Positions 4,139 to 6,497 of a DNA stretch of 35,990 nucleotides are shown here, piece by piece (position 1 is the stretch's first letter; each line of letters begins with the position of its first letter). Position numbers and translations under genes: made by a program. This DNA is from an uncultured Clostridia bacterium (GTDB lineage: Bacteria; Bacillota; Clostridia; Christensenellales; CAG-314), in contig CALVLA010000002.1 in NCBI GenBank assembly GCA_944336125.1, positions 151,301 to 187,290 on the forward strand, written 5' to 3'. The notes beneath the pieces were generated by a model that was not told where the DNA came from, made no database searches, and worked only from the letters and a program-made list of their open reading frames with translations.

Positions 4139-4999
4139 ATGAAAAATCGTTTTTTAAAAATCGCAGCGTTGATTTCGGCAATGCTCATAGGTATTTTTGC
4201 TTTTGTCGGCTGCGGCAATACGGCGCCTACAAAAGGCTATGACATCGAGCTCGCAAAAGCTTTTGCCGAAGAAGCAGGCATTGAACTCGAACTTGTCAAA
4301 ATCGAGTGGAGCTTCAAGGAAACCGAAATTTCCTCGGGAAACATCGACCTTATCTGGAACGGTATGACAATTCACGAAGAAATGTACGACAACCTTGAAA
4401 TCAGCAATCCGTACCTTACCAACAATCAGGCAATGGTTATAAAAAGCGACAGCAATATCACTAAAGAACAAATCAAAAGCCAAAAACTTAAAATCGCAGT
4501 AGAAAACGGAAGCGCCGGCGCTGCCGCAGCTGAAGAAAATTTCCCTGAAAGCGAAGTCGTGAAAGTAGCAGATCAGATTTCCGCTTTGACCGAACTTAAA
4601 GCAGGCAACGTTCAGGTAGCAATAATCGACTCAATCATGGCAGGCTACTATGCGGCAAACGACGAATCAAGCTTCAAAGGTCAAATCAAAATGATTACCA
4701 AAGCAGACGGTTCGCTTGACGCACTCACTACCGAGGAATACGGTATCGCAGCCAAAAAAGGTAACGTCGGTCTTATCGCAATGGTAAACGACACACTCGC
4801 AAAACTTTATCAAAACGGAACGATGACGGAAATCGCCGAGAAATACGGTTTTGAAAAAATCATCGTAAAAGAAAGTTTCGAAAACTACGTTACTCAGTAC
4901 GACAAACTTTCGGAAGCCGAAAAAGCAAGCTGGGAAGCAATTAAGGAAAAAGGCAAAATCCGTGTCGGTTACACATTGTTTGCCCCTATCGCTTACTGA
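4139..4999 (+). CDS. Amino-acid-type ABC binding lipoprotein, apparently circularly permuted
   Basis: A 286-residue periplasmic-binding-protein type II (SBP_bac_3) lipoprotein. The signal peptide ends in lipobox FVGC with the lipidated Cys at 25. In the usual family order the domain begins with a strand like KIRVGYTLFAPIAY and continues into GYDIELAKAF. Here the mature protein starts directly at KGYDIELAKAF (32-42) and runs through the whole fold to AEKYGFEKIIV (233-243). A helical linker follows (244-270), and the missing first strand, KIRVGYTLFAPIAY, comes last (273-286), right before the stop. At the normal ITxER carboxylate-binding motif the sequence is IHEEM, so the Arg is Met82; Asp164 in the second lobe is kept. 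It heads the operon with permease and ATPase. The ligand is uncertain. Confidence 0.85.
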   Translation: MKNRFLKIAALISAMLIGIFAFVGCGNTAPTKGYDIELAKAFAEEAGIELELVKIEWSFKETEISSGNIDLIWNGMTIHEEMYDNLEISNPYLTNNQAMVIKSDSNITKEQIKSQKLKIAVENGSAGAAAAEENFPESEVVKVADQISALTELKAGNVQVAIIDSIMAGYYAANDESSFKGQIKMITKADGSLDALTTEEYGIAAKKGNVGLIAMVNDTLAKLYQNGTMTEIAEKYGFEKIIVKESFENYVTQYDKLSEAEKASWEAIKEKGKIRVGYTLFAPIAY

Positions 5000-5027
5000 A
5001 ATCACAATTAAACAAAACAAATACGAA

Positions 5028-5051
5028 TAACCTTGCGAATCCGCAAGGTTA
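5028..5051 (+). terminator. Intercistronic hairpin between binding protein and permease
   Basis: A 10-bp stem, TAACCTTGCG / CGCAAGGTTA, with loop AATC and only a short T stretch after it. It is probably a partial terminator or mRNA stabiliser, which commonly lets the binding protein be made in excess over the permease and ATPase. Confidence 0.6.
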
Positions 5052-5070
5052 TTTGCAGGAGAAGTAAAAT

Positions 5071-5721
5071 ATGTCCAGTTCTTTTTGGAGCGTTACGCAG
5101 TCGCTTATGGGCGCGTCGCTGTACACTCTGGGTCTTTTTGTTATCACTTTAATATTTGCAATTCCGCTTGGTCTGGGAGTTTGCGTTTTGGCTCGCAGCA
5201 AGTTCAAACCTCTGCGTGCGGTAATGCGTGTAATAATTTGGATTATTCGCGGCACCCCTCTCATGTTGCAAATAGTGCTTTTCGTTTACGCACCGGGGCT
5301 TTTGTTCGGAATTTCCGTTTCAGACAGGTTCATTTGGGTAGCTCTGGCATTTGTAATCAACTATGCCGCTTACTTTGCCGAAATTTACCGCGGCGGTATC
5401 GAAAGTATCCCCGTCGGTCAGTACGAAGCGGGCAAAGTTTTGGGATTTTCGAAAAAACAAACTTTTTCAAAAATCATTATGCCGCAGCTTGTTAAACGCA
5501 TAGTTCCCCCTATGGGAAACGAAGTCATCACCCTCATTAAAGACACGTCGCTTGCAAACGTAGTTGGTATTGCCGAAATTATCATTACCGCAAAAGACAT
5601 CACCAACACTACCGGCGCAATTTGGCCTATATTCTATACAGGCGTGTTCTACCTGATTTTCAGCGGAATTATGACGCTTGTTTTGCAGTGGATTGAAAAG
5701 AAATTGAATTATTACAGGTAA
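5071..5721 (+). CDS. Polar amino acid ABC transporter permease
   Basis: A 216-residue integral membrane protein of the HisM/GlnP family with about five transmembrane helices. Family marks are RGTPLMLQ (60-67) and the EAA loop EAGKVLGFSKKQTFSKIIMP (119-138), which docks on the ATPase. Only one permease is encoded, so it presumably works as a homodimer. A GGAG site precedes the ATG. The gene is 5 bases before the ATPase gene and behind an intercistronic hairpin. The substrate class, polar amino acids, is inferred from the family, with caution because the partner binding protein is unusual. Confidence 0.93.
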   Translation: MSSSFWSVTQSLMGASLYTLGLFVITLIFAIPLGLGVCVLARSKFKPLRAVMRVIIWIIRGTPLMLQIVLFVYAPGLLFGISVSDRFIWVALAFVINYAAYFAEIYRGGIESIPVGQYEAGKVLGFSKKQTFSKIIMPQLVKRIVPPMGNEVITLIKDTSLANVVGIAEIIITAKDITNTTGAIWPIFYTGVFYLIFSGIMTLVLQWIEKKLNYYR

Positions 5722-5726
5722 AAGAC

Positions 5727-6497
5727 ATGGAAATACTTAAAGTTAACGATTTAAATAAAAGCTTCGGTGACCTGCATGTTTTGAAAGGTATTTCTTTCAG
5801 CATGCAAAAAGGCGAGGTGTTGGCGATTATCGGTTCTTCCGGCGGCGGCAAAACAACTTTGCTGCGCTGCCTCACTTTTCTCGAAACGGCTGACCGAGGC
5901 GAAATTACAGTAGACGGCGACAAAATCGTTTCCGAAACAGAGGAAAACGGAAAATTCAAATGCATTTACCCCGACGAAGAAAATCTTCGCAAAAGAGCTT
6001 TGAAAGTAGGCTTGGTTTTTCAGGACTACAATCTTTTTCCGCACAAAACGGCAAAGGAAAATTGTTCGCTTGCCCCTATCAACGTGCTGAAAACAGACAA
6101 AGAAACCGCAGACGCAAAATCGGTTGAAATTTTGAAACGCGTAGGCCTCGAAGACAAAATCGACTACTACCCTTACCAGCTTTCAGGCGGCCAAAAACAA
6201 CGTGTCGCTATAGCAAGGGCTCTTTGCATGAACCCGTCGCTGCTATGCTTTGACGAGCCTACCAGCGCCCTTGACCCTGAGCTCACCGCAGAAGTGCTGA
6301 AAGTTATCAAACAGCTCAAAAACGAAGGCGTTACCATGCTTATCGTAACTCACGAAATCAACTTTGCGAGAGACGTCGCGGACAAGGTCATCTTTATCGA
6401 CAACGGCGTAATTCTTGAAGAAGGCGACGCAAAATCGGTTATCGATAACCCTAAAAACGCGCGCACTAAAGAATTTTTGCAAAGTATCGCTTTGTAA
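5727..6497 (+). CDS. Polar amino acid ABC transporter ATP-binding protein
   Basis: A 256-residue cytosolic ATPase of the GlnQ/HisP group. Walker A is GSSGGGKT (36-43), the Q-loop VFQDYNLFP (97-105, Q99), the signature LSGGQKQR (152-159), Walker B LLCFDEP (172-178), and the H-loop His is H209. An insert between strands (about 66-90, rich in E/D/K) is common in this subgroup. It completes the binding protein-permease-ATPase operon. No clear terminator follows. Confidence 0.95.
   Translation: MEILKVNDLNKSFGDLHVLKGISFSMQKGEVLAIIGSSGGGKTTLLRCLTFLETADRGEITVDGDKIVSETEENGKFKCIYPDEENLRKRALKVGLVFQDYNLFPHKTAKENCSLAPINVLKTDKETADAKSVEILKRVGLEDKIDYYPYQLSGGQKQRVAIARALCMNPSLLCFDEPTSALDPELTAEVLKVIKQLKNEGVTMLIVTHEINFARDVADKVIFIDNGVILEEGDAKSVIDNPKNARTKEFLQSIAL

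Follow-up and report, generated by a model that had tools for sequence, protein, structure and literature searches.

The SBP_bac_3-family lipoprotein gene at 4139-4999 (+) of the window, by which we mean the whole analysed stretch of 35,990 nucleotides from an uncultured gut-type Christensenellales bacterium, raises the question of whether its 286-residue product has a permuted chain order, and whether such a protein could still serve its operon. Its match to SBP_bac_3 (PF00497) scores 87.3 bits against a curated cut-off of 26.4, and amino-acid-type permease and ATPase genes adjoin it, as in a PAAT-type importer operon. The features of the locus are as follows:

4139..4999, + strand: circularly permuted SBP_bac_3 substrate-binding lipoprotein, 286 amino acids (profiles, relatives, AlphaFold2, tree and rotation test)
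4139..4213, + strand: signal peptide, ending at the lipobox FVGC (sequence; Cys25 invariant in relatives; predicted helix at residues 3-23)
4232..4858, + strand: fold body, residues 32-240, beginning at 'KGYDIELAKAF' and ending with the canonical C-terminal helix (profile, PDB and fold matches)
4859..4954, + strand: linker, residues 241-272, between the former C-terminus and the former N-terminal strand, with a helix at 259-271 (alignment, AlphaFold2)
4955..4996, + strand: canonical first strand placed last, residues 273-286 (alignment, rotation test, comparison with the canonical relative L121)
5024..5055, + strand: strong stem-loop between the binding-protein and permease genes (z -6.3; found in the relatives G001, G002 and G003)
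5071..5721, + strand: amino-acid ABC permease, BPD_transp_1 (profile matches)
5727..6497, + strand: amino-acid ABC ATPase, nearest models TcyN/EhuA/GlnQ (profile matches)

To judge from sequence, the operon would serve the uptake of an amino acid or a similar solute. The stem-loop, the sequence of which differs in part among relatives of the genus, suits unequal expression of the two genes that it separates, and it probably sets a higher level of the binding protein relative to the permease.

Chain order of the window protein

Matches to the Pfam SBP_bac_3 profile, to NCBIfam models and to PDB sequences span residues ~29-247 of the window protein and mostly start at profile or chain positions 20-60, which indicates that its N-terminus is devoid of the first strand. 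This is in line with an earlier note on this DNA, which had the mature chain begin with a later segment of the fold (KGYDIELAKAF, residues 32-42). The missing strand, KIRVGYTLFAPIAY, is located at residues 273-286. The rotation test relied on a profile of 67 proteins, all of them canonical. The native window chain matched it in two domains, the order of which was swapped (positions 46-253, then 8-38 of the profile), whereas the rotated chain matched it as a single domain (8-253) with 204.4 bits; when the C-terminal segment was shuffled 200 times as a control, the score was 184.1 ± 0.8 bits, with a maximum of 188.7. Residues 8-238 of the window protein align in order with canonical L121 at 37% identity, and residues 261-286 align to residues 26-51 of L121 at 50% identity. 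Together, the rotation test and the L121 alignment bear out the earlier proposal that the strand which opens the fold lies at the C-terminus. The proposed resemblance of residues 244-270 to the N-terminal linker of ordinary family members is likewise visible in the alignment (...ASWEAIKEKGKIRVGYT in the window protein, ...SDWEYIQKQGKMIVGYT in the canonical relative L119). Inspection by eye of the ~300 bases upstream and of the gap before the permease gene revealed no trace of a second copy. The window protein does not follow the canonical order, in which the first strand is N-terminal, and is a topological variant of SBP_bac_3; we take the canonical order to be usual in this family and to lie outside its curated membership rule.

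Predicted fold and ligand site

A structure prediction, suggested as a check in the earlier note, was made with AlphaFold2 from 23 sequences and gave a confident single-chain model (pLDDT 89.5, pTM 0.83; ~96 for strand 273-278) that resembles GlnBP (Z ~20). It matched open GlnBP (1ggg) with a Z of 20.2 at 2.0 Å, residues 27-240 of the model lying on residues 20-224 of the chain, and 3hv1 with a Z of 20.8, so that the window protein has, as a predicted model, the two-lobed type II fold. The structure aligners (VIA, Foldseek) follow sequence order, and their matches therefore leave the first strand of the targets unaligned, as expected of a permutant, and cannot show the permutation itself. Judged from model confidence and secondary structure, strand 273-278 appears to pair into the lobe-1 sheet. 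The same strand could instead complete lobe 1 of a partner chain in a domain-swapped dimer, in which case the protein would be permuted in sequence and not as a single-chain fold. A swap would be permitted by the length of the joining linker (~32 residues), but the single chain was modelled with high confidence, and no window-type relative retains the strand at both its N- and its C-terminus; we consider the swap very unlikely. This lack of a second copy also led us to reject a C-terminal duplication that keeps the first strand at both ends.

The window protein would thus be an ordinary two-lobed type II fold in which the first strand closes the chain instead of opening it. The termini created by the cut would be situated in the hairpin loop that joins the first strand to 'GFDIELAKAV' in canonical relatives, the cut site corresponding to their loop 'APIAY-EEGGQLI-GFDIDLA', and the old termini would be bridged by the linker. 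Such a protein would close round its ligand and pass it to the adjoining permease and ATPase like canonical binding proteins, and we infer that the permutation carries no functional penalty.

Of the Asp/Gly-x-Thr/Arg set, D164, G75 and T77 are retained in the window protein, and the Arg is replaced by Met at residue 82 (window 4382-4384), where most relatives carry Arg. These four positions are presumably the counterparts of GlnBP ligand residues, and with Met in place of the ligand-site Arg, the ligand of the window protein may differ. Met82 is also found in G002, not in G001 or G003. The loss of the usual ligand Arg, in G002 as well, could be read as a sign that the permuted gene is decaying or acts outside transport, for example as a sensor or an inert lipoprotein. 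However, the fold residues are conserved, D164, G75 and T77 among them, other window-type proteins keep the Arg, and a permease gene stands beside every permutant examined in the order, which makes decay or a role outside transport highly improbable.

Permuted forms among relatives

The source genome is a metagenome-assembled draft in 20 contigs, and the chain order could be an artefact of assembly or binning, such as collapsed tandem copies. Against this, relatives in many separate assemblies carry the same order. All three genomes of the same genus have it (56, 56 and 45% identity), as do G029 from another family (41%) and Christensenellales MAGs of several other families from separate projects. 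Across several projects, the same junctions recur in at least 15 distinct genomes (35-56% identity), in some of them on contigs of more than 150 kb, and the other permutation points described below are just as consistent between genomes. An assembly artefact is therefore excluded for practical purposes. Across seven relatives, W265, just before the last strand, and G277, Y278, T279, A282, P283, I284 and A285 within it are invariant. The search of related genomes suggested in the earlier note has thus found the same order within the genus and beyond, and with permease and ATPase genes adjoining, its reading of a natural permutant with intact operon partners is supported.

The first homologue search already revealed relatives cut at other points. 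A doubled, register-neutral profile, in which the start of a match reveals the cut position, detected the canonical form and four permuted forms in 200 Christensenellales genomes:

Window type: cut in the lobe-1 hairpin loop after the first strand
Type 77: cut where the chain first crosses the hinge
Type 108: cut within lobe 2, downstream of the GSAG helix
Hinge type: cut near the second hinge crossing

The loci of each permuted form are single open frames, and a signal peptide and a lipobox are recognisable in nearly all of them. A permease gene lies directly downstream in 43 of the 43 permutants examined within the order, and is followed by an ATPase gene in 42; in the remaining one the contig ends. 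A survey of 291 genomes of the class detected types 77, 108 and hinge outside the order as well; the window type was seen in the order only. At least one permutant outside the class, G540, is among the 150 matches listed for 299 genomes of the phylum. Sixteen loci from the class and phylum surveys were verified as single frames; for L198-L200 no permease was present in the flank examined, the partner check being less full for these three and for L205. The source genome itself contains only two SBP_bac_3 genes, and the two are permuted at different points; the second (G000:C3:80723-81187, L091:3230-4228, - strand) is of the hinge type and is followed by permease and ATPase genes. AlphaFold2 gave a poor model (pLDDT 62) for the hinge-type permutant L176. 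Several candidates were rejected: L210 and L211, with doubled-profile starts at 176-190, are canonical proteins the signal peptides of which had aligned to the linker, and L016-L018 and L029 (starts 240-257, ends near 446) are distant canonical proteins and not of the window type.

A tree of 76 register-corrected proteins, which represents the history of this one protein only, needs at least 14 changes of topology. Its well supported branches force five changes for the hinge type, four for type 77, and two each for the window type and type 108. The hinge-type L176 and L074 are nested inside type 108, and the canonical L119 (377-1162) and L121 (3986-4780) are nested inside the window type with support of 81-93, which is not decisive; the latter nesting may reflect either reversion to the canonical order or repeated gain of the window type. 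L176 (3890-4735) and L102 (2952-3836) have different permutation points at 53% identity in their common part, and a segment of ~35 residues is C-terminal in one of them and N-terminal in the other. These results suggest that permuted forms of SBP_bac_3 in Christensenellales arose more than once. A single origin of each type followed by horizontal transfer, a rival for the origin only, would fit the small clades and long branches of a tree made from one protein. It is at odds with the changes forced for all four types, with the nesting of types within one another and with the L176-L102 pair, and transfer by itself cannot convert one type into another along the gene's own tree; we regard it as unlikely.

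The window gene is very probably a natural circular permutant that encodes a working, membrane-anchored binding protein, one of at least four forms in Christensenellales and other Clostridia that have arisen repeatedly. We also lean, with some reserve, towards the broader reading that these binding proteins repeatedly relocate their termini among a few permitted sites (the lobe-1 hairpin, both hinge crossings and one lobe-2 loop) in Clostridia, and most of all in Christensenellales. This would include conversions between permuted forms and perhaps returns to the canonical order.

Route of permutation and known systems

Permuted forms would probably arise by in-frame tandem duplication and subsequent loss of the outer parts. 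In the window protein, the linker 241-272 holds the helix and the 'EKGKI' lead that follow the signal peptide in canonical proteins, a finding simply explained by a tandem duplication in frame of which the outer parts were lost, and we infer this route for the window type. No tandem intermediate of the window type was found; the only tandem forms among the relatives are permease fusions, in which arrays of two (L090), three (L088) or four (L089) binding-protein units are fused to one permease within the order. These arrays tile best in the register of type 77 (hinge 1), and on the broader reading of moving termini, arrays of this kind would supply the material for cutting new termini.

To our knowledge, natural circular permutations mostly come to light when distant relatives are compared, and their route is then untraceable. 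Here, canonical and permuted forms, and differently permuted forms, lie within 37-53% identity of each other with the same operon partners, so that the route of duplication and truncation is directly testable. The same series allows tests of whether the moved lipid anchor or termini alter binding or docking. If the reading of moving termini is true, the family is a natural series for testing the evolution of circular permutation, a binding-protein fold permuted repeatedly in nature with the adjoining transporter genes kept. In practice, ordinary profile searches clip these permutants, which are also misread by annotations and models that assume the canonical order. For sensors based on these proteins, the positions at which nature has cut the chain are candidates for insertion or splitting.

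We found no report of natural circular permutation of type II amino-acid ABC binding proteins in the open-licence literature, which is not proof of novelty. The window protein is like type II binding proteins (GlnH, HisJ, ArgBP, 3hv1, 4ohn) in family, predicted fold, lipoprotein anchor, and permease and ATPase partners, and differs from them in that its first strand comes last and its new termini fall within the hairpin loop that follows this strand. In GlnPQ-type fusions of binding protein and permease (6h30), tandem domains are joined to a permease as in the relatives L088-L090; in contrast, these relatives hold two to four units that tile best in a permuted register.

TpMglB-2 (Tp0684) of Treponema pallidum, designated 'Type Ic', is a permuted type I sugar-binding protein that binds glucose and changes shape (PMC4990184). 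Like the window protein, it is a natural permutant of an ABC binding protein that is lipid-anchored and has kept its operon partners. However, it has a type I sugar fold and one reported permutation point, whereas the proteins described here have a predicted type II amino-acid fold, at least four permutation points and a probable repeated origin. The window protein also falls outside 'Type Ic', which is defined by a type I fold in which the three opening strands of the N-lobe come at the C-terminus; the window protein is predicted to be type II, and only one strand has moved. PDZ domains occur in nature in four permuted forms (CIRPIN, PMC12667903) and, like SBP_bac_3 here, represent a single fold with several natural permuted forms. 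Unlike PDZ domains, the SBP_bac_3 forms are found within one bacterial order, differ from each other at 53% identity and keep their operon context.
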